Of a stretch of 64,000 nucleotides of DNA, positions 8,500 to 53,707 are shown piece by piece; within the stretch, counting starts at the first letter, position 1; the number at the start of each line of letters is the position of its first letter. The notes below the pieces were generated by a model that saw only the letters and a list, made by a program, of their open reading frames with translations, ran no database searches and was not told where the DNA came from. A program made the position numbers and the translations under genes. This DNA is from Candidatus Saccharimonadota bacterium (GTDB lineage: Bacteria; Patescibacteriota; Saccharimonadia; Saccharimonadales; Saccharimonadaceae): NCBI GenBank assembly GCA_030537075.1, contig JAUNOS010000001.1, positions 156,079 to 220,078 of the forward strand. The letters are read 5' to 3'.

Positions 8500-8763
8500 T
8501 GAATTGACAAATTTGTCTTATAGTATATAGTATTATTAACCTGACAGTAGACACCACTGCACGATGTGTGACCCCCGTAACAAGTTGTAAAATTAACAAA
8601 ACCTCTTGCAAACCCCACATCTAGTGCTTATTATGGTATACATACGCTATATATATAGCGGTGCACACAAACAAAAATAACGGAGCATAGAGACGATACA
8701 ACCCCAGAGGAGGTGCTGGGTGGTCTTTGAGACTCCACGTAGAGGGGTAATAAGGGAGGTAGA
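8500..8763 (+). promoter_or_regulatory. nrd upstream region: promoters, candidate operators, structured leader
   Basis: A 264-base gap with several signals. TTGACA (8504-8509) with an 18-base spacer to TAGTAT (8528-8533) is a promoter-like pair. TGGTATACAT (8635-8644) is a second, extended -10. Two palindromic sites flank the latter: CACATCTAGTG (within 8612-8627) and CGCTATATATATAGCG (8645-8660), with centres 33 bases apart; both resemble NrdR boxes. The transcript beyond 8660 can form small hairpins (ACCCCAG/CTGGGT, GTCTTTGAGAC) before the ribosome binding site GGGAGGT of nrdA. Confidence 0.55.
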
Positions 8764-27488: not shown

Positions 27489-29231
27489 ATGCAAGATGCC
27501 AAAGAAGAGGTGCGCGCGCGACTGAATATCGAAGATGTCATCGGCGAGTATGTGCAGCTGAGTCGGGCGGGGCGCAACCTCAAGGGGTTGAGTCCGTTTA
27601 CGGACGAGCGGACACCGAGCTTTATGGTGAGTCCTGAAAAGCAGATTTGGCATGACTTTTCTTCTGGCAAGGGCGGCGACATCTTTTCCTTCGTGATGCT
27701 GGTCGAGGGGATGGATTTCCGGGGGGCGCTGGAGCATTTGGCGCGCAAGGCGGGTGTGGAGCTCGACATGTTTTCGGGTGGTGACGGCAAGACGGCCAAG
27801 CGGCGAGCGCGGGCGCGTGAGGCCTTGGCCCTCGCGGCGCGGTTTTACCAACAGGTGCTGCTGCGGACGCCGGAGGCGCTGTCGTATGTCAGTCAGCGGC
27901 GTGGCCTGGACAAGCAAACGGTGGCCGCGTTTCAGATTGGCTATGCGCCAAGCGACGGCTCGGCACTGGTGCGGGCATTGGAAAAGCGCGGCTTTTCACG
28001 GCGCGAGCTGGCAGATGCGGGCCTGACAAACCGCTATGGCGGTGATCTGTTTCGTGGACGTATGGTGGTGGTGCTGAGCGACGGCGCGGGTGAGCCGGTC
28101 GGCTTCACTGGACGTATCATTCGTGACGAGCCAAATGCCCCGAAGTACCTCAATACGCCCCAGACGCTCTTGTTCGATAAGTCACGCCATATCTTCGGGC
28201 TGTACCAGGCGAAAGAGGCGATCCGCAAAGAGGACGTGGCAGTCATCGTCGAGGGTAATCTAGACGTGGTAAGTAGTCATCAAGCGGGCGTGGCGAACGT
28301 GGTGGCGACTGCTGGGACGGCGATGACCGAGCAGCACCTGAAGGCGTTGAGTCGCCTGGCGGGACGTATCAAGCTGGCATTCGACGGCGACAAGGCGGGG
28401 GTAAGTGCCACGGAGCGAGCTATCGGTTTGGCGCAGGCGGTCGGTGTGGAACTAGAGGTCATTTCCTTGCCAGGTGGTGCTAAGGATCCTGATGAGCTCA
28501 TCCAGTCCCGCGGTGTTGACGCCTGGCGTCAGGCTATCGCCGAGGCTCTGCCGGCAGTGGAGTGGGTGATTCGGCGGTATTCTGAGCGAGAAGACGTCAC
28601 TTCGGCCGAGGGCAAGCGGCGCTTTTCGACGGCGGCCCTCACCTTGATACGTCGCCTGAAAGATCCGGTAGAACAAGAGCATTATCTGAAGGAAGTTTCT
28701 GCCACGACGGGGGCGAGTCTGATAGCACTGCGGGCAAAGTTGCAGGGCCAGGCTTCGCAGTCGTCAGTGCTAACATTGAAACGACCCAAAGTCGAAAAAC
28801 AGGCGATCCGGCAACCGACGGATGATGCGGAAGATGCCGTACTCGGCCTGGCGCTGCGCGAGCCTGCGGTGCGACGTTGGTTGCCAGCTCTGAAGCCGGA
28901 GATGTTCACGAATGAAACAGTGCGGGAATTGGCAGCTGCTTTGCAGGCGGGCGACGACCTGAACACCGAGCAGTTGCCGCCACACTTGCAAAAATTTGAA
29001 CAGTATGTAAAGATAGTACAGTTGAAAAGTGACAGTCGCTATGCCAATTGGGAGCCAGAAGCGCTCGATAAAGAAATGGCTCGGCTGGTCAAGAGAATCG
29101 TAACCAAACACCGTGAACACAAAAAACAGCAATTATTACACCAGTTGCGCGATGCGGAAGATATGAATGACGAGACGCAGGCGGAAGCCTTGCGCCATGC
29201 GCTGAACGCACTGATAAAGGAGAACAAGTGA
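27489..29231 (+). CDS. dnaG: DNA primase DnaG without zinc ligands
   Basis: 580-residue primase making RNA primers at the fork. The N-terminal zinc-binding domain keeps its fold sequence ([26 protein letters not shown]), but the four metal ligands of the family, Cys, His, Cys, Cys, read Ser35, Thr38, Asp56 and Ser59. The RNA polymerase core follows, with FTGRII, the TOPRIM Glu in VIVEGNLD (about 255) and FDGDKAG (about 299). The C-terminal helicase-binding region is shorter and divergent. TGGTATAAT ends 6 nt before the ATG. Overlaps rpoD by GTGA. Confidence 0.95.
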
Positions 29232-30187
29232 ACGACGATACGCAGTACACCACCGACGAAGATTTTTTAGAGCCAGATTTGCAGGCGGTTGACGACGAGG
29301 AAGAGGTCGAGGACCTCGACGCGCTGAACGCCGGCCAGTATCTGGATGATATTTCCGATGACTCGGTGCGGTTGTATTTGCGCGAAATTGGTAAAATTCC
29401 GCTCTTGAGCGCCGAAGAGGAGATGGAGCTGGCGCAGCGTATCGTCCAGGGTGATAAGAAGGCCAAGGACAAGATGGCCGAGGCAAATATGCGCTTGGTG
29501 GTGTCCATCGCTAAGCGCTACTCGGGCCGCGGGCTGGACTTCCTGGATCTTATCCAGGAAGGAAATACCGGTCTGCTGCGCGCCGTTGAGAAATTTGACC
29601 CCGACAAGGGCTTTAAGTTTTCGACCTACGCTACCTGGTGGATTCGCCAGGCTATCACCCGCGCCATCGCTGACCAGGCGCGTACCATTCGCATCCCGGT
29701 CCACATGGTTGAGACTATCAACAAGTTGCTGCGTACCCAGCGGCGGATGACCCAGGAGCTGAACCGCGAGCCAACCATCGAAGAGCTGGCGAAAGAGCTC
29801 GAGATGGAGCCGGAAAAGGTCGAACACGTGATGAAGATCAAGCAAGACATCTCCAGCCTCGATGCTGGCGTGGGGCGCGATGGCGACGACGAGGACTCGG
29901 TCTTAGGCGATTTTATCGAGGATGAGGACACGGTTTCTCCAGAGGAATCAGCGACCAATCAGTTGCTGAAAGAGAAGGTGGCCGAGGTGCTTTCCAGCCT
30001 CAGTGATCGCGAGCAGAAGATCGTCCGTATGCGCTTCGGGTTGGACAACGGCAAGAGCCATACTCTGGAAGAAGTCGGCCAGGAATTTGCCGTCACTCGC
30101 GAGCGTATCCGCCAGATTGAAGCCAAAGCCCTCACCAAACTTCGCAAGCACAAGGATGCGAAGAAGCTGTATGAGTATTTGAGTTAG
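29228..30187 (+). CDS. rpoD: primary sigma factor RpoD
   Basis: 319-residue sigma-70 housekeeping factor. An acidic N-terminus of about 40 residues replaces a full region 1.1. Region 1.2 begins [12 protein letters not shown]; region 2 has [20 protein letters not shown] and [10 protein letters not shown]; region 3 has [12 protein letters not shown]; region 4 has [14 protein letters not shown] and the helix-turn-helix [19 protein letters not shown]. The start is GTG 29228 with AAAGGAG upstream, overlapping the dnaG stop. The dnaG-rpoD pair is a classic bacterial order. It should recognise the extended -10 boxes seen across this window. Confidence 0.97.
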
Positions 30188-30549: not shown

Positions 30550-31140
30550 TCAGCACTGCTCGGGCGCCTTACAAAAATGCTCGTGGCGAGTGATGGCGTC
30601 GAGTTTGGCGTGTAGCTCCTCCAGACTGCCGTCATTGATGACGAAGTAGTCAGCGATGGCGATGGGGCCGCCTTTTTCGAGGTTTTCGATTTCCGACCAA
30701 TCACGCTGGTCGATCTCGTGCGGTTGCATCGGTCGCTCGGGGCGCTTGGCCATGCGCTGGTAGCGCAGGTGCTTTGGCGTGACGATGGCGACGACCGACA
30801 TCTGGCCGGGAAATTCATGCTTGAGGATCTTATATTCACTCCAGGTGTACAGACCATCTAGCACGATCATCTTCTGCCCCGCGTTGATCAGATCATGCGC
30901 GTTTTTAATAGCTCGCTTGACGACGAAATCCTTACCTTCTTTCGCGCGAATTTCCTCGCGGAACTGCTGCTGGTTATCCCAGGTCGGCTCAATGCCTGCT
31001 TCGGCCATGGCCTGGTAAATGATGCCGCCAAAGTAGATCTTCGGGATGCCTTTAGCGGTGAAATAATCGACCGCCGAACTCTTGCCGCTGCCCGCCAGGC
31101 CCACTAGGGCGATGATTTTTGCATGCTTGTCTGTACTCAT
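30550..31140 (-). CDS. P-loop kinase, dephospho-CoA kinase-like
   Basis: 196-residue nucleoside/CoA-type kinase fold: Walker A GLAGSGKSSAVDYF at the N-terminus, IYFGGIIYQ, a lid-like region with RYQRMAKRPER and EIDQRDWSEIE, and DYFVINDGS near the end. This pattern is seen in AAA/dephospho-CoA kinase-like proteins; the true substrate is uncertain. ATG 31140 follows a -10 TACAAT (complement of 31147-31152) by 6 nt, ruling out a longer frame. Single gene. Confidence 0.75.
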   Translation of the reverse strand: MSTDKHAKIIALVGLAGSGKSSAVDYFTAKGIPKIYFGGIIYQAMAEAGIEPTWDNQQQFREEIRAKEGKDFVVKRAIKNAHDLINAGQKMIVLDGLYTWSEYKILKHEFPGQMSVVAIVTPKHLRYQRMAKRPERPMQPHEIDQRDWSEIENLEKGGPIAIADYFVINDGSLEELHAKLDAITRHEHFCKAPEQC

Positions 31141-31256
31141 GAAGGTATTGTAGCAACTCGGTAGCAGGGTGGCAAACACGGGGCCAGTGATGGGCGGTCA
31201 GAGGCGCCCCGTAAGGTGTTTATGGTTGCAAAAAGAAAGAAAAATTGCAAAAGTAC

Positions 31257-31287
31257 TTGACAAATCAAGAGAGAGAGAGAGTATTAT
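31257..31287 (+). promoter_or_regulatory. lipoprotein promoter with (AG)7 repeat in the spacer
   Basis: -35 TTGACA (31257-31262), a 19-base spacer of which 31268-31281 is seven AG units, and -10 TATTAT (31282-31287). Loss of one unit gives the optimal 17-base spacer, and loss of two gives 15. It drives the 304-residue lipoprotein. Confidence 0.7.
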
Positions 31288-31351: not shown

Positions 31352-32266
31352 ATGGCACGAAATGAGAAATTCACGGCACCAGCTCCTAGCGTAGAAAAAG
31401 GGGAAGACAGCGGGCGACCTGGCCCGCTCAAAAAGTTAGTACTGGCCGGTATCGCGGTGGGAACAGCATTTAACACGGCTGCTTGTTCAGCGGAGGATTG
31501 GGAGTCACCACGGCCGACAGCTACAGTGACGGTGACTGAGACGGCGACCCCTTCAGCGGCGCCAGAAGCCGCTACCAGTGAAGTTGGGAAAGAGCAGTCT
31601 GACATCGAGATTAAGCCGACCCCAGAGGAAATGCAGCGCGCAAAGGAAATTGTGCTTCCTGAGATAGAGGAGAGGCTTAACGAGTTTGAAGGTCTTATCG
31701 CAAGTGGAGAGTTATCGCAGTATAACGTTCTTAGCGGCAAGGACTCACTATCGTTTTATGGCGATGAGCATCATATACCTGGGTATGGCGAGGAGCAGGG
31801 TGTGACGTTTGAGGGACGGAATTCCCTTGGATTCTTTGTTACTCCTACGCTTGAGGGTACTACTTTGAGAGTTTCTCAGGAGGCATCGGTGTCTGCTTAT
31901 CAGAATGGAGAACTTGTTAAGTACGATGAGATGAGTTCTGAGCTAAAAAAAGAAGAGGCTAAGTTAGAAGAAAGCGTTACTGTCAAGTTTTCTATCCCAG
32001 AGGGTTATCTCTCAGATGGGGATCTGGCCCCTGATACTATTCGTAAGGTGTTGAAGGATCCTGAGACGCTAATGACTGATATCAGTAGTGATATTCGTGG
32101 GCTAAACAAACACGCCTGGGATGATGGTGGTATACTGAATTCCTATGAGTATAAGTATGAGTATGATGATGCTGGAGACGGCACGATGATTTTTCTTGAC
32201 GGTTATGGCCCACGAGAAACTCTGGAACGCATACTCAGTGACTACCTTCGGGGTGCGGGTAAGTAG
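31352..32266 (+). CDS. Sec-type lipoprotein with Thr/Pro-rich linker
   Basis: 304 residues. A signal segment (about 27-44) ends in a lipobox with Cys45 (NTAAC), so the mature protein is lipid-anchored outside the membrane. A Thr/Val/Pro linker (TATVTVTETATPSA) leads to a domain of about 230 residues with SIPEGYLSDGDLAPDTI and a C-terminal YEYDDAGDG region; no fold recognised. ATG 31352 lies after the promoter at 31257; the frame is open further upstream, but that part precedes the start of transcription. The linker resembles that of the 39148 lipoprotein. Confidence 0.75.
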   Translation: MARNEKFTAPAPSVEKGEDSGRPGPLKKLVLAGIAVGTAFNTAACSAEDWESPRPTATVTVTETATPSAAPEAATSEVGKEQSDIEIKPTPEEMQRAKEIVLPEIEERLNEFEGLIASGELSQYNVLSGKDSLSFYGDEHHIPGYGEEQGVTFEGRNSLGFFVTPTLEGTTLRVSQEASVSAYQNGELVKYDEMSSELKKEEAKLEESVTVKFSIPEGYLSDGDLAPDTIRKVLKDPETLMTDISSDIRGLNKHAWDDGGILNSYEYKYEYDDAGDGTMIFLDGYGPRETLERILSDYLRGAGK

Positions 32267-32290
32267 TCCACTCATCTGACACACCCTATT

Positions 32291-32316
32291 CCCGCCGTTA
32301 CCCACGGCGGGATTTT
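32291..32316 (+). terminator. Rho-independent terminator of the lipoprotein gene
   Basis: CCCGCCGT, loop TACCC, ACGGCGGG, then ATTTT, 24 bases after the lipoprotein stop and 21 bases before the polA -10. Confidence 0.88.
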
Positions 32317-32348: not shown

Positions 32349-34883
32349 ATGAAACGACTGGCGGTTATTGATGGCAAATCGGTATTTTACCGGGGGTATT
32401 ATGCGATGCCCGGCCTCAGCACGGCTGACGGGGTGCCGACGGGCGGGGTGTATGGGTTTGTCTCTTTGGCGATTGAATTGATCAAAAAGTTGGAGCCGGA
32501 CTATGTGGCAGTGGCGTGGGATAAGAAGGGGACGAATATCCGCAAGCGCCGTGAGCTCTACCCGGAGTACAAGGCGGGGCGAAAACCCGCGCCGGATGAT
32601 TTTTATGCCCAGATTCCCATTTTGATGGAGCTGCTGGACGCTTTTGGTTGGCCGCTGTATGAGCTGGATGACTATGAAGCGGATGATATCATGGCGACGT
32701 TCGCAGTGGAGGCGGCTCAGAAGGGGGTCGAAACCTGCCTGATTACCTCTGATCTGGACGCCTTGCAGGCAGTTAGTCCGACCACCCGGGTGTTTGCTAT
32801 GAAAAACGGCCTGAGTAACATCCAGGAGTTTACGCCAGAAAGCTTTGAGGCAAAATATGGCATTCGGACCGAGCAGTTTTTGGATTTGAAGTCGCTGATG
32901 GGTGACTCAAGTGATAATTTGCCAGGCGTGCCAGGCGTGGGGCAAAAAACAGCGGTGAAGTTGCTGCAGGCGTACGGCGACCTGGACGGCGTGTACGCGC
33001 ACGTGGATGAGCAGAAGGGCGCCCTGAAGGCCAAGTTAGAGGCAGGGCGTGAATCGGCGTACCTGACGCGTGAGGTGGCCAGGCTGTGGAGTGATGCGCC
33101 GGTGCAGCTGGACTGGGCGGTGGCGGATGTCAATGACTGTGATTATGCGCGGGTGGCAGAAATTCTCAGGCGGCTGGAGTTTCATTCGCTGGTGGGGAAG
33201 TTGCCGGCGTATATGCAGGCGGAGAGCGCGGCCTTTGTCCCTGAGGCGCTGGCCGAGCCGTCCCTAGAGCCGCTACCGCCAGCGCCGCTGTTTGACGCGG
33301 TGGTGTTTGCGTGGCACGATGACGCTACTCCTGGCACGCTATATGTAGCGTCGACACCAGATGTAGCGTATACGGTGGATATAGCGACGGCGCCCGAGTC
33401 GCTATGGCGGGTGTTGGAGCAGGGGCGCGTGGTGGCGGAGGATGTGAAGGCGCTGTATCACGCGCTGGACGCGGCAGGCGTCAGCGTGCGGTTTGGCGAG
33501 GTGTGGGATGTGCGGCAGGCGGCGTTTTTACTGGATCCACTCAGGCGGGACCGGAGTTTATCCGCGCTGAGCGGTGATTTTACGGAAGATGCTGGGCCGG
33601 TGCGGCAGGTGGCGCGGCTGCAAAAGGTGTATACTGAACAGGTCAGTAGCTTTGAGGGTCGTCCGGAGCTTTCGCGCATCGCCATGGACTATGATTTTCC
33701 AGTGATTTGGCCGCTCTTTCAAATGGAGCGGCGGGGGATGCGGCTGGATGTCTCCTCTTTGGAACAGATGGGCCGAGAGCTAACGGCGGAGCTCAGGCAG
33801 ATTGAGCAACAAATGTATACGGCCGCTGGCTATGAGTTCAATCCCGCTAGTCCGGCGCAGCTGTCTGAGGTGCTGTTTACGAAGCTGCAACTGCCGACGT
33901 CAGGGATAAAAAAGGGCAAGACGGGTTATTCGACGGGGCAGAAAGAGCTGGATAAGCTGCGCGGCCAGCATCCTATCATTGAGTTGATTGAGCGGCAGCG
34001 TGAGCTGGCAAAACTGATGAGTACTTATGTGGAGGCGCTGCCAAAGCTGGTGGCGGACGATGGGCGGATTCACACCACCTTTCATCAGGACACCACCAGT
34101 ACTGGGCGGCTCTCCAGCACCAATCCAAATCTGCAGAATATTCCGGTGCGCACCGAGCTAGGGCGGCGGATTCGTCAGGCGTTTGTACCGAGCAGGGGCA
34201 AGGTGTTCGTGGGCGCCGATTATTCGCAGTTTGAGCTGCGTCTGGCGGCGGCGCTGGCGGGCGACCAAGCGCTGATTGACGACTTTAATAGCGGGGTGGA
34301 TATTCACACCAAGACAGCGGCGGAGACCTATGGTGTGGCCATGGAGCAGGTGACGAAGGAGCAGCGGCGGGCTGCTAAGGTGATCAATTTCGGCGTGCTG
34401 TACGGCATGAGCCCGCACGGGCTGGCGGCCGCGGCGCAGATGAGTTTTATGGAAGCGAAGCAATTTATTGATCATTATTTTGCGCTGCGCCAACCAATTC
34501 GCGACTACCTGGATAAGACATTAGCACAGGCGAAAGAACAGGGCTATGTGGCGACTTACTTTGGCCGACGCCGTCCGACGCCAGATGTTAATTCGAGCAA
34601 TTTTATGGTTCGCTCGGCGGCTGAGCGGGCAGCTATGAATATGCCGATCCAAGGCACCGAGGCGGATCTGATGAAGCTGGCGATGATTCGGCTGGAGGAA
34701 AGCTTAGCAGGGCTAGCCGAGCCGGTGCTGCAGGTGCATGATTCCATCCTCGTGGAATGCGCGCCAGAGGATACCAAAAAAGTGGGCGATATCATGCGGC
34801 GAGAGATGGAGAGTGTCTGTCCAGAGCTGGCTATTAACCTTAAGGTTGATGTGGGCGTCGGGTCACACTGGGGTCGGGTATGA
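32349..34883 (+). CDS. polA: DNA polymerase I
   Basis: 844-residue repair and Okazaki-fragment polymerase. The 5'-3' exonuclease domain is intact (LAVIDGKSVFYRGYYAM, DDYEADDIMATF, GDSSDNLPGVPGVGQKTA). The 3'-5' exonuclease region (about 295-460) lacks the DxE motif, so proofreading is probably absent. Polymerase motifs A (GADYSQFELRLAA, about 620), B (RRAAKVINFGVLYGM, about 673) and C (VHDSILVE, about 796) are complete. TGGTATAAT (32337-32342) ends 6 nt before ATG 32349. The stop overlaps the next start (ATGA). Confidence 0.97.
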   Translation: MKRLAVIDGKSVFYRGYYAMPGLSTADGVPTGGVYGFVSLAIELIKKLEPDYVAVAWDKKGTNIRKRRELYPEYKAGRKPAPDDFYAQIPILMELLDAFGWPLYELDDYEADDIMATFAVEAAQKGVETCLITSDLDALQAVSPTTRVFAMKNGLSNIQEFTPESFEAKYGIRTEQFLDLKSLMGDSSDNLPGVPGVGQKTAVKLLQAYGDLDGVYAHVDEQKGALKAKLEAGRESAYLTREVARLWSDAPVQLDWAVADVNDCDYARVAEILRRLEFHSLVGKLPAYMQAESAAFVPEALAEPSLEPLPPAPLFDAVVFAWHDDATPGTLYVASTPDVAYTVDIATAPESLWRVLEQGRVVAEDVKALYHALDAAGVSVRFGEVWDVRQAAFLLDPLRRDRSLSALSGDFTEDAGPVRQVARLQKVYTEQVSSFEGRPELSRIAMDYDFPVIWPLFQMERRGMRLDVSSLEQMGRELTAELRQIEQQMYTAAGYEFNPASPAQLSEVLFTKLQLPTSGIKKGKTGYSTGQKELDKLRGQHPIIELIERQRELAKLMSTYVEALPKLVADDGRIHTTFHQDTTSTGRLSSTNPNLQNIPVRTELGRRIRQAFVPSRGKVFVGADYSQFELRLAAALAGDQALIDDFNSGVDIHTKTAAETYGVAMEQVTKEQRRAAKVINFGVLYGMSPHGLAAAAQMSFMEAKQFIDHYFALRQPIRDYLDKTLAQAKEQGYVATYFGRRRPTPDVNSSNFMVRSAAERAAMNMPIQGTEADLMKLAMIRLEESLAGLAEPVLQVHDSILVECAPEDTKKVGDIMRREMESVCPELAINLKVDVGVGSHWGRV

Positions 34884-38229: not shown

Positions 38230-39155
38230 TCCACCTCCTTCACGGTGACAACGAATTTGAAAAGCGGGAGCGGCTGGTGGCGCTGCTGGATGGTGCGCGC
38301 CCGCTTTCCCATGATGGCGCGGTGCTGGAATTGGGGCGGCTGCGTGAGCTGCTGCAGGGGCAGAGCTTGTTTGGCGAGGCTGAGCCAATTGTCATCCGGC
38401 GGCTGAGCGACAATACTGAAGCCTGGGCGGCGCTGCCGGAGCTGGCGGACGGCACGGACGTCACGCTCATTTTGCTGGAGATGAAGCCTGACAAGCGCAC
38501 TAAAACCTACAAATGGCTGCAAAAGCACGCCGAAGTGACGGAGTGCAAGGCATTTGGTGAGCGCGACCAGACTAAAGCGGTGGCCTGGTGTGTGGCGCGG
38601 GCTGAGGCGGCGCATCGGCTGAGCCTGACGCGTGAGGCCGCTCAGGCTATCATCGAGCGGCTGGGGCATGATCAGCTGCGGATCGATCATTTTCTGGCGC
38701 AACTGGCGCTGGCGGACGACGCGACGGTGGCGACCATCCATCAGCTGCTGCCGCTGGCGAAGACGGAGAGCGCTTTCGTGCTGTTCGAGGCGGCGCTCAA
38801 GGGTGACATTGCGACTGTGCAGCGCACGCTGCGGTTTTTAGAGCAGAGCAGTGGCGATGACGGCGCGTACCAGACACTGGGGCTGCTGGCGTCGCAGCTG
38901 GTGCAGCTGAACGCACTAGTGTTGGCGGGTGGTGACGCCGCACGAGTAGCGGCAGATTTTGCGGCACATCCGTATGTGCTCCGTAAATTGGCGCCGTATG
39001 TGAAAAATATCACGGTGGCACAATTAGCGGCGATGAACCAGGCACTAGCGGCGGCTGACCACCAGATGAAAACGACCAGTGTGGGGCCATGGCTACTTGT
39101 CGAAGTAGCGATACAAGACATAATGGGCGGGAGAAAAGGAGTAGATGATGAGTGA
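38226..39155 (+). CDS. holA: DNA polymerase III delta subunit
   Basis: 309-residue clamp-loader subunit that opens the sliding clamp. The opening IHLLHGDNEFEKRERL matches HolA (LLYGxDxxLxxE type), then LILLEMKPDKRTK, KAVAWCVARAE, LGHDQLRIDHFLAQLAL and a C-terminal helical domain with FVLFEAALKGD and LGLLASQLVQL. ATG 38226 is chosen for the ATGA overlap with mutM and the AAAGGAGG before it. The rpsT gene nearby is a common bacterial neighbour of holA. Confidence 0.92.
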   Translation: MIHLLHGDNEFEKRERLVALLDGARPLSHDGAVLELGRLRELLQGQSLFGEAEPIVIRRLSDNTEAWAALPELADGTDVTLILLEMKPDKRTKTYKWLQKHAEVTECKAFGERDQTKAVAWCVARAEAAHRLSLTREAAQAIIERLGHDQLRIDHFLAQLALADDATVATIHQLLPLAKTESAFVLFEAALKGDIATVQRTLRFLEQSSGDDGAYQTLGLLASQLVQLNALVLAGGDAARVAADFAAHPYVLRKLAPYVKNITVAQLAAMNQALAAADHQMKTTSVGPWLLVEVAIQDIMGGRKGVDDE

Positions 39156-39993
39156 AAAGCGATGGAGCGGGGAGTTGGGAGAGCGTACTCGCGGGATGGT
39201 GCTGCGTGGTATGGCTGGAGTGGCTTCGCTGTCGGTACTACTTGGCTTGACCTCATGTGATAAGGTTTCGGCTGAGGTGAAACCAGCGCAGGCTACTGCT
39301 GGTGAGACGCCGTCACCTAGCCCCAGCGAGACCGCTCCTCGACCGGTGGCGACTGCGACCGTCACGGAGACGGTGACCGCGCCACCATCTTCTGAGCCGG
39401 TCGTCGAGAAGACAGCGTCCCTGGAGGAGTCACTGGCGCCTGACCAGCTCACGGAAGATGAACGAGTAGAGCGGTCGCATCAGGCACAGGCTGCAGTGCT
39501 GCGCGCCCTTGAAGCAATTCCGCTGACTCGCGAGGCAGAACTGGCTGGTGAGGATGCGCCAGTTGACGGCGTGATAGCTTTCGCGGAGCTGAGGCGGACA
39601 TACGAGGACGGTGATCGCTCAGTGGTTCAGTCGCTGGCCGTGGAGACGAGTAGTGGTGAGTTAGTGGTGCGGCTGACGAGTACCGAAGTGTGCCTGGAGG
39701 GCGACGAACCAGTCGGCTGCGCTGCGGAGAAAGATGGTGCGTATGAGCTGCGCTTTGGCCGTGTGGTGCCAGCGGGCGAGGTATTCACCCTTGCTGAACT
39801 GCGTGGTGCGATGCAGTCAGGCCAAGCGATACTTGTGGGCGGACGTATCGCTGTCTCTGGCCACGAGGGAACCTACGACGCGGAGGTGATGCTGGGGGAG
39901 GATGGTCGCATCAGGCTGGTCGGCGGCGAGGGCATGACCGCACGCCAGGAGCTTGATGGACTACTAGTATTCGGTGGCTACGGCCGTTCCTAG
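39148..39993 (+). CDS. Sec-type lipoprotein with Thr/Pro-rich linker
   Basis: 281 residues: a basic N-terminus, a hydrophobic segment (about 19-36) and lipobox LTSC with Cys37, then a linker containing PVATATVTETVTAP and an acidic domain of about 190 residues with one Cys pair (TEVCLEG, VGCAAE). No fold recognised. ATG 39148 is spaced 6 bases from AAAGGAG; ATG 39145 is too close. It overlaps the holA 3' end by 8 bases. The linker is shared in style with the 31352 lipoprotein. Confidence 0.72.
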   Translation: MSEKRWSGELGERTRGMVLRGMAGVASLSVLLGLTSCDKVSAEVKPAQATAGETPSPSPSETAPRPVATATVTETVTAPPSSEPVVEKTASLEESLAPDQLTEDERVERSHQAQAAVLRALEAIPLTREAELAGEDAPVDGVIAFAELRRTYEDGDRSVVQSLAVETSSGELVVRLTSTEVCLEGDEPVGCAAEKDGAYELRFGRVVPAGEVFTLAELRGAMQSGQAILVGGRIAVSGHEGTYDAEVMLGEDGRIRLVGGEGMTARQELDGLLVFGGYGRS

Positions 39994-52105: not shown

Positions 52106-53707
52106 ATGTCAAATCCAGAGAGAGAGAGTCATTACTCGAGTGATCAGCCACAAGATGCGTTAATCCGACTGGTGACTGGTCAAACATTGCATGACTTGGA
52201 ATCGGTGCGTGATGATGTCGCAGATAAACTGACGACGGCGCAGGCTGTTGCTGAGCAGTTAAAAAGCGGTTCAAGCGAGGAGGTGGTGAAGGCGCTGCGG
52301 GTAATTCTGGCGTCAGGCGACCCGGTGCGTCAGGAATTTCCACAGCTAGAGGCCTTCATTGACCGGGCGCAGCCGACTCATTTGCATGCGCCGTTACTGC
52401 GGGCAGCTTTGATGGCGAATATTCCGGTGTGGCTGCACGGTGAGGCTGGTAGTGGTAAATCGACGACTGCTGAGCGCAGCGCGGATTGGCTAGGGCTGTC
52501 ATTTCGCTCAATTTCGCTCGGGCCTTCTTCATCAAAAGCTGATCTCATGGGGTATCGTGATGGTCACGGTGAGTATCGGGGGACGGGGTTTCGCGAGGTG
52601 TATGAAGACGGCGGTGTGTTTTTGTTTGATGAAATTGACAACGCCCATCCGTCTATTTTGACATTACTGAATGCTGCGATCGCCAATGGTCATGGCGAAT
52701 TTCCGGACGGGCGGGTGGCGCGACACGAAACCACGCGGTTCGTGGCAGCGGCGAATACCATTGGCAAAGGCGCGACCGCCGAATATGTTGGTCGAGCGCC
52801 GATTGATGCAGCGACGATTGACCGCTTTGCGTTTGTTCAGATGAATACCGACCCTGATTTGGAGCAGGCGCTCGTGCTGGGTGGTGATATTGACAGGCAG
52901 TCGCTCGACATTTCTGCTGGTGGCGTGCCGGACAGGCCGGAGTGGTTAGCAGAAGTACGGGCGCACCGCGAGGCGGTCGAAGAACTCGGTATTCGGGCTA
53001 TCATCAGCACACGGGCAGCGCTGTATGGTGCACGACTCAGTGAGCAAGGCGTGGGACTGGACTGGCTGCGCGAGATGTTGCTCTACAAAGGTATGCGTCA
53101 GGAGGAGCGTGAGAAGTTGGCGGAAGCTGCCGCCAAGTTGTGGCCAAAGCATGCGGAGGGCTTGGCGGCGGATACCAAGATATCTTCTGCTGGAGAGGTT
53201 CAGCGCGAAACAGCGTTTCAGCCACCCGTGCTGGACGTGGAGTATATTCAAAAATTAGACCCCTACGGCTTTGCGAGCAAGCTAGACGACGCAATGCATC
53301 GCTTAAACGACGTGATGAAAAGTCTTGTTGACGGCATCGAGCTAAAGGGCGAGCTGGAGAAAAAAAGTACCAAAGCCCTGCTAGCGCTGAGTTGGCGGCT
53401 AGAACAGGAAGGCAGGTATATTCTTACGGGATATGATACAGAGATGGTTCGCCGTGCGAGGAGTAAGGCGGCATCTGTAGATTGGCTCGAGAAATGGTGT
53501 CGTGATTATTTCCACCCGGTTAGACTTGATTGGGAAACAAACGATGATAGCTCGGCGATATGCCGCATGAGGGAGCAACTTGATAGCGCGCAGCTACAAG
53601 GGCTACTCAATGACTTTAGGGATGAATATCAGTTTACGCCTGGGCCGTACACAATGTTGAATTGGCTGGTGAAGACTGGAAGGCTAGAGGATCTCCTGGA
53701 TGCGTAA
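52106..53707 (+). CDS. MoxR-type AAA+ ATPase
   Basis: 533 residues. AAA+ core: Walker A GEAGSGKST (112-120), Walker B GVFLFDEIDNA (170-180), sensor 1 FVAAANT (to Asn217), and an IDRF segment with a possible arginine finger near 240. A helical N-terminal part (1-95) and a C-terminal half of about 210 residues are unassigned. MoxR ATPases act as chaperones with VWA-domain partners; the next gene overlaps by 8 bases and looks VWA-like. TTGAGGTAG precedes the ATG. An (AG)6 tract lies in codons 4-8. Confidence 0.82.
   Translation: MSNPERESHYSSDQPQDALIRLVTGQTLHDLESVRDDVADKLTTAQAVAEQLKSGSSEEVVKALRVILASGDPVRQEFPQLEAFIDRAQPTHLHAPLLRAALMANIPVWLHGEAGSGKSTTAERSADWLGLSFRSISLGPSSSKADLMGYRDGHGEYRGTGFREVYEDGGVFLFDEIDNAHPSILTLLNAAIANGHGEFPDGRVARHETTRFVAAANTIGKGATAEYVGRAPIDAATIDRFAFVQMNTDPDLEQALVLGGDIDRQSLDISAGGVPDRPEWLAEVRAHREAVEELGIRAIISTRAALYGARLSEQGVGLDWLREMLLYKGMRQEEREKLAEAAAKLWPKHAEGLAADTKISSAGEVQRETAFQPPVLDVEYIQKLDPYGFASKLDDAMHRLNDVMKSLVDGIELKGELEKKSTKALLALSWRLEQEGRYILTGYDTEMVRRARSKAASVDWLEKWCRDYFHPVRLDWETNDDSSAICRMREQLDSAQLQGLLNDFRDEYQFTPGPYTMLNWLVKTGRLEDLLDA
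52117..52128 (+). repeat. (AG)6 dinucleotide tract in the MoxR coding start
   Basis: Six AG units at the 5' end of the coding region, in codons 4-8. Gain or loss of one unit would shift the frame near the N-terminus. Together with the (AG)7 tract at 31268 it is the only AG run of this length I noticed. Confidence 0.7.

Follow-up and report, generated by a model that had tools for sequence, protein, structure and literature searches.

The site at positions 31257-31287 of the window (the whole 64,000-nucleotide stretch of Saccharibacteria DNA that was analysed) is a member of a promoter class in which a simple repeat fills the spacer between the -35 and -10 hexamers. It is probably the promoter of the gene encoding a 304-aa protein and one of a Saccharibacteria class in which slippage of the repeat would alter the spacing and the expression. 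Phase variation by spacer length appears to be the best explanation of this promoter class. Judged from sequence comparison, the mechanism put forward in the original prediction is strengthened, the surface-antigen rule seems weakened for AG promoters, and what had been a single site extends to a putative family-wide promoter class.

Saccharibacteria live as tiny episymbionts on other bacteria, and few regulators are known in them. Genome-wide slippage-controlled promoters, if true, would provide population-level variability, perhaps in host attachment or defence evasion. The AG and poly-G promoters together would constitute a list of candidate interaction genes, testable in cultured Saccharibacteria such as Nanosynbacter.

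Features of the promoter region, its gene and the flanking genes (positions in the window)
Feature	Position	Strand	Remark
Primary sigma factor, RpoD type	29228..30187	+	consistent with -35/-10 promoters
Divergent AAA/kinase-like gene flanking the slot	30550..31137	-	kept in 8/9 genomes of the genus
Promoter-like TTGCCA-17-TACAAT of the divergent kinase-like gene	31175-31147		
A-rich segment upstream of the -35 box	31212..31256	+	contains TTGCAAAAA-type motifs
-35 hexamer TTGACA	31257-31262	+	direct reading of the sequence
Spacer, 19 bp, AATCA + (AG)7	31263-31281	+	direct reading
(AG)7 tract	31268-31281	+	14/19 spacer bases
-10 hexamer TATTAT	31282-31287	+	followed by discriminator AGGAGCCATAAC
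304-aa orphan protein, putative lipoprotein	31352..32266	+	ATG 31352
Predicted intrinsic terminator	32290..32312	+	directly 3' of the 304-aa gene
polA-like gene, other flank of the slot	32349..34883	+	conserved in the genus; named by sequence, not by family search

Anatomy of the promoter and its gene

Direct reading confirmed to the base that TTGACA and TATTAT stand 19 bp apart with (AG)7 taking up 14 of the spacer bases, as had been predicted; a pure simple repeat lies between recognisable -35 and -10 hexamers. Pattern searches in the 810-kb genome (99.75% complete, 5 contigs) yielded 13 matches to TTGACAN{16,20}TATWAT and none to the reversed-pattern control. Nine of these have a spacer of 17 bp, three of 18 bp and a single one, the site at 31257-31287, of 19 bp. 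The expected occurrence of the promoter pattern in the window is 0.02. A default sigma-70 scan (spacer 16-18) omits the site because its spacer is 19 bp long. The loss of one unit would give (AG)6 and 17 bp, the spacer length found most often in this genome, and both paralogous elements are (AG)6, in agreement with the earlier claim that one AG unit fewer gives the ideal distance. Dinucleotide frequencies predict about 0.14 tracts of (AG)>=6 and about 0.01 of (AG)>=7 per genome, while four tracts of at least six units were observed. The discriminator AGGAGCCATAAC is partly common to the sister elements (AGG..CCATAA), and TTGCAAAAA-type motifs also occur upstream of several of them. Elsewhere in the window, a TTGACA/TATTAT-like site directly follows a tRNA-like sequence (8504-8700), and a palindrome, CGCTATATATATAGCG, possibly an NrdR-type site, lies upstream of a ribonucleotide-reductase-like gene (8764).

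The 304 codons open at the ATG at 31352, the next ATG in frame that is preceded by a ribosome site resembling AAAGG. By inspection, the protein has a hydrophobic segment at residues 29-40, followed by NTAAC45. The surface lipoprotein that had been proposed stands as far as the hydrophobic stretch ending at Cys45 is concerned, but the Asn at -4 of this Cys falls outside the strict lipobox; a surface lipoprotein is thus plausible but not secure. Similar proteins of another genome, G008, carry a regular lipobox. No Pfam or NCBIfam family was found for the 304-aa protein, a search of 100 other genomes returned no relative except one marginal match, and a pattern search of GTDB contigs gave no homologues. 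An AlphaFold2 model (3 sequences) was discarded as unusable (mean pLDDT 40.6). Among the putative lipoproteins under AG promoters (that of the window, two of G008 and one of G205) the best pair reached E=7e-5, in one direction only and in a 15-sequence set, and a profile built from the four proteins recovers its own members alone.

AG and poly-G spacers across the family

Three of the four (AG)>=6 tracts of the genome are housed in an element of the form TTGACAAATC[A/G](AG)nTA[A/T]TAT, with n=7 at the window site and n=6 at both sister elements; the latter, at C4:795 and C4:27142, have spacers of exactly 17 bp. The fourth tract, (AG)6 at window 52117, was rejected as a promoter spacer, as it is part of the coding sequence of an AAA ATPase, where it takes up codons 4-8. 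This MoxR-like gene carries the tract (52106-52128) beside an opposite-strand TTGACA-17-TATTAT promoter, and slippage at this point would cause a frameshift. A gapped pattern search of 198 family genomes found the perfect element in 7 of them, from 4 genera, at a total of 11 sites, and none with the reversed pattern. The unit number is five at one site, six at six and seven at four, corresponding to spacers of 15, 17 and 19 bp. A scan of 84,980 GTDB species returned eight matches, seven of them in Saccharibacteria; in the eighth, from Prochlorococcus, the spacer is longer, and this match seems fortuitous. Viral contigs gave three unrelated matches and no sign of a phage origin. The AG tract differs between species and between paralogous sites in whole units, in a comparison that rests on one assembly per species, mostly metagenome-assembled.

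Related or imperfect forms were found as well: GAGATAGAGAGAG in G008, with an interrupted tract and the 17-bp spacing kept, AGAGAAAAAGAG in G194, TTGACAAATCGA(G)9 in G130, and an (AG)5 form at the extreme end of a contig in G004. The latter contig (G004:C9) stops directly after TTGACAAATCTAGAGAGAGAGTATATTA, which is what an assembly interrupted by a variable or repeated promoter would look like. Conservation goes slightly beyond the hexamers, taking in TTGACAAATC[A/G] and the AGG..CCATAA after the -10 box. Another conserved element, TTGACAAATAGTCCYTCGTATTAT, with 12 bp between its hexamers, is found in genus g8, at roughly one copy per genome.

In relatives of the window's genome, which itself has no poly-G promoter, the spacer may be filled by a run of G. 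The pattern TTGAC...(G)8+...TANNNT has 192 matches (a total summed by hand from a table, with a few sites matching twice) in 76 of 394 family genomes and 20 genera, against 4 for the reversed pattern, and reaches 12 per genome (G028). The tracts of the 134 listed poly-G promoters range from G8 to G19 and abut the -10 box in 115; their spacers measure anything between 11 and 26 bp, and just 13 have 17 bp. Repeat-free promoters with TTGACAAAT and TAWTAT have 17 bp in 19 of 22 cases, these having been hand-picked with sites offering a second possible -10 box left out. Poly-G is also found in the -35 frame of the AG element, as TTGACAAATCGA(G)9 and TTGACAAATC(G)14; apart from the tract, the poly-G promoters have no common spacer sequence. 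The genes behind them include those of collagen-like proteins, an N-methylated pilin, and IPT/TIG and Fib_succ_major proteins, and further ones whose products combine a signal peptide with a C-terminal anchor, e.g. behind TTGACAAATC(G)14TAATAT. By a crude hydrophobicity test exported products are not significantly enriched behind poly-G promoters (14/27 vs 12/34, p=0.30).

Proposed phase variation and its alternatives

We propose that slipped-strand mispairing would alter the number of AG units, that (AG)6 would set the optimal 17 bp and high expression, and that (AG)7 (19 bp, the assembled state) and (AG)5 (15 bp) would allow little or no transcription. A population would thus contain both expression states. 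Three steps we infer: slippage would be frequent enough within a population, tract length would control transcription, and the protein would be on the surface. The spacer-filling repeat is a pure tract in several genera, its length changes by whole units between orthologous and between paralogous sites, and poly-G takes its place in the same frame; selection for variable spacing best accounts for this. The earlier claim that AG slippage changes the -35/-10 distance finds strong comparative support in the (AG)6 paralogues, the range of n from 5 to 7, the differences at an orthologous slot and the poly-G promoters of relatives. Against phase variation, seven dinucleotide units make a short tract, the poly-G promoters are not significantly enriched for exported products, and the shared TTGACAAATC[A/G] exceeds what a repeat alone would require, a surplus that could be due to a regulator site or to common descent. 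Tracts of five dinucleotide units in Haemophilus influenzae are mostly constant in length between strains (PMC2651432), and in Neisseria dinucleotides were called unlikely to be phase-variable (PMC5320596).

What the AG elements have in common goes beyond the repeat, and the main rival is therefore a small regulon of accessory genes under a regulator that recognises TTGACAAATC[A/G]AGAGAG...; the length differences would then be tolerated drift. The conservation between genera of the spacer bases outside the repeat and of those after the -10 box would fit such a site, as would the G008 member GAGATAGAGAGAG, in which the tract is interrupted and its length kept, and three sites in one genome would make a regulon. 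However, n runs from 5 to 7, and a spacer change of 2-4 bp would displace the site relative to the hexamers; AG is replaced by poly-G in the same frame, and the many poly-G promoters have no common spacer sequence outside the tract. We consider a regulator site unlikely as the whole explanation. It is not exclusive of phase variation, since at the meningococcal nadA gene the operators bound by a repressor flank the phase-variable tract (PMC2791445).

Somewhat less likely still is an ordinary constitutive or weak promoter with an inherited AG-rich spacer, in which slippage would have acted over evolutionary time and would not constitute a switch. The shortness of the tract and the optimal 17 bp of both sister elements agree with it, but the purity of the tract in several genera, the repeated whole-unit variation and the independent poly-G tracts of up to G19 are hard to explain without selection. 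In the window an open frame extends from upstream across the tract, which might also suggest a translational switch, with the AG tract inside a frame running from GTG 31169 into the lipoprotein and slippage shifting that frame. We regard this as highly improbable: a consensus promoter would fall in a coding region and the start in the promoter of the divergent gene, and the frame is open through the tract in just 3 of the 11 elements and closed between tract and gene in most.

Phase variation by spacer length has precedents outside the Saccharibacteria. A (TA)9-11 tract in the hifA/hifB promoter of H. influenzae was proposed to alter the -10/-35 spacing (PMC2651432, which cites van Ham 1993 and Geluk 1998). 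The likeness to hif that had been drawn for this site holds for the promoter logic, a dinucleotide tract proposed to act on the -10/-35 spacing, and at some hifA loci the upstream tract is a mononucleotide one, comparable to the substitution of poly-G for AG here. It does not extend to the genes, as there is no pilin or chaperone and the 304-aa protein lacks an assigned family. The hif locus comprises divergent pilus genes with a longer tract and demonstrated switching, and it has no sequence relation to the AG promoter. The homopolymers between -35 and -10 at Neisseria fetA and porA, whose length sets expression, closely match the poly-G promoters of the relatives (PMC5320596); those systems, however, belong to Proteobacteria, encode outer-membrane proteins and were shown experimentally, whereas the unit here is AG and is known from sequence. 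In Mycoplasma gallisepticum, which also has a reduced genome, repeat length controls the vlhA lipoprotein promoters, but the variable GAA trinucleotide lies upstream of the promoter (~-40 region) and serves a large paralogous family (PMC6258824). The hypervariable repeat described in a Gracilibacterium belongs to a coding region rather than to a promoter (PMC6851277). Searches of the open PMC literature (subscription papers and preprints lie outside it) yielded nothing on phase variation, phase-variable genes or contingency loci for Saccharibacteria, Nanosynbacter, the candidate phyla radiation or Patescibacteria, and the novelty of phase-variable promoters in Saccharibacteria is therefore provisional.

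Slots and the genes behind the promoters

The AG elements sit in small gaps between housekeeping genes; the names of these (prfA, prmC, recJ, rpsU etc.) were assigned by reading translations, not by family searches. Comparison with 8 congeners of the window genome revealed that the prfA-prmC gap contains the element in three of the genomes, with n=6 (the window's own genome), 7 and 7 and with similar upstream sequence. Between these three prfA is 84-88% identical and prmC 64-67%, and the three genes behind the promoters have no detectable mutual similarity. The gap is empty (75-117 bp) in two congeners, and in one it is occupied by another gene, whose promoter is an ordinary one. In G004 (G004:C29:11124-11153) it contains TTGACT-TTCTTGCA-(G)10-TATACT, with N8 before the tract, and then a gene for a collagen-like Gly-X-Y protein. 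In the recJ-rpsU gap the promoter region is nearly identical in two congeners and the encoded proteins are hardly comparable. The window slot, between the kinase-like and polA-like genes, has different small genes or none in the congeners.

A surface antigen had been named as the classic target of such a switch, an expectation that does not apply to the AG family as a whole. Lipoprotein-like products number three (the window's and two in G008), that of G205 is by appearance of a membrane-anchored or secreted type, and most of the remaining proteins have no recognisable signal peptide. No Pfam family was found among the AG-promoter proteins scanned. As a tentative generalisation, Saccharibacteria might keep exchangeable slots beside housekeeping genes, each with a portable slippage-prone AG or poly-G promoter, in which the gene would change, by replacement or rewriting, at a far higher rate than the promoter. 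These episymbionts would thereby possess a reservoir of species-specific proteins with stochastic expression, including some on the surface.

An rpsT-like gene adjoins an AG-promoter gene in both G008 and G134, and its copy in the window is without such a promoter. Between holA-like and rpsT-like genes the window encodes a second putative lipoprotein (39145-39993, + strand), of 282 aa and with the regular lipobox LTSC.
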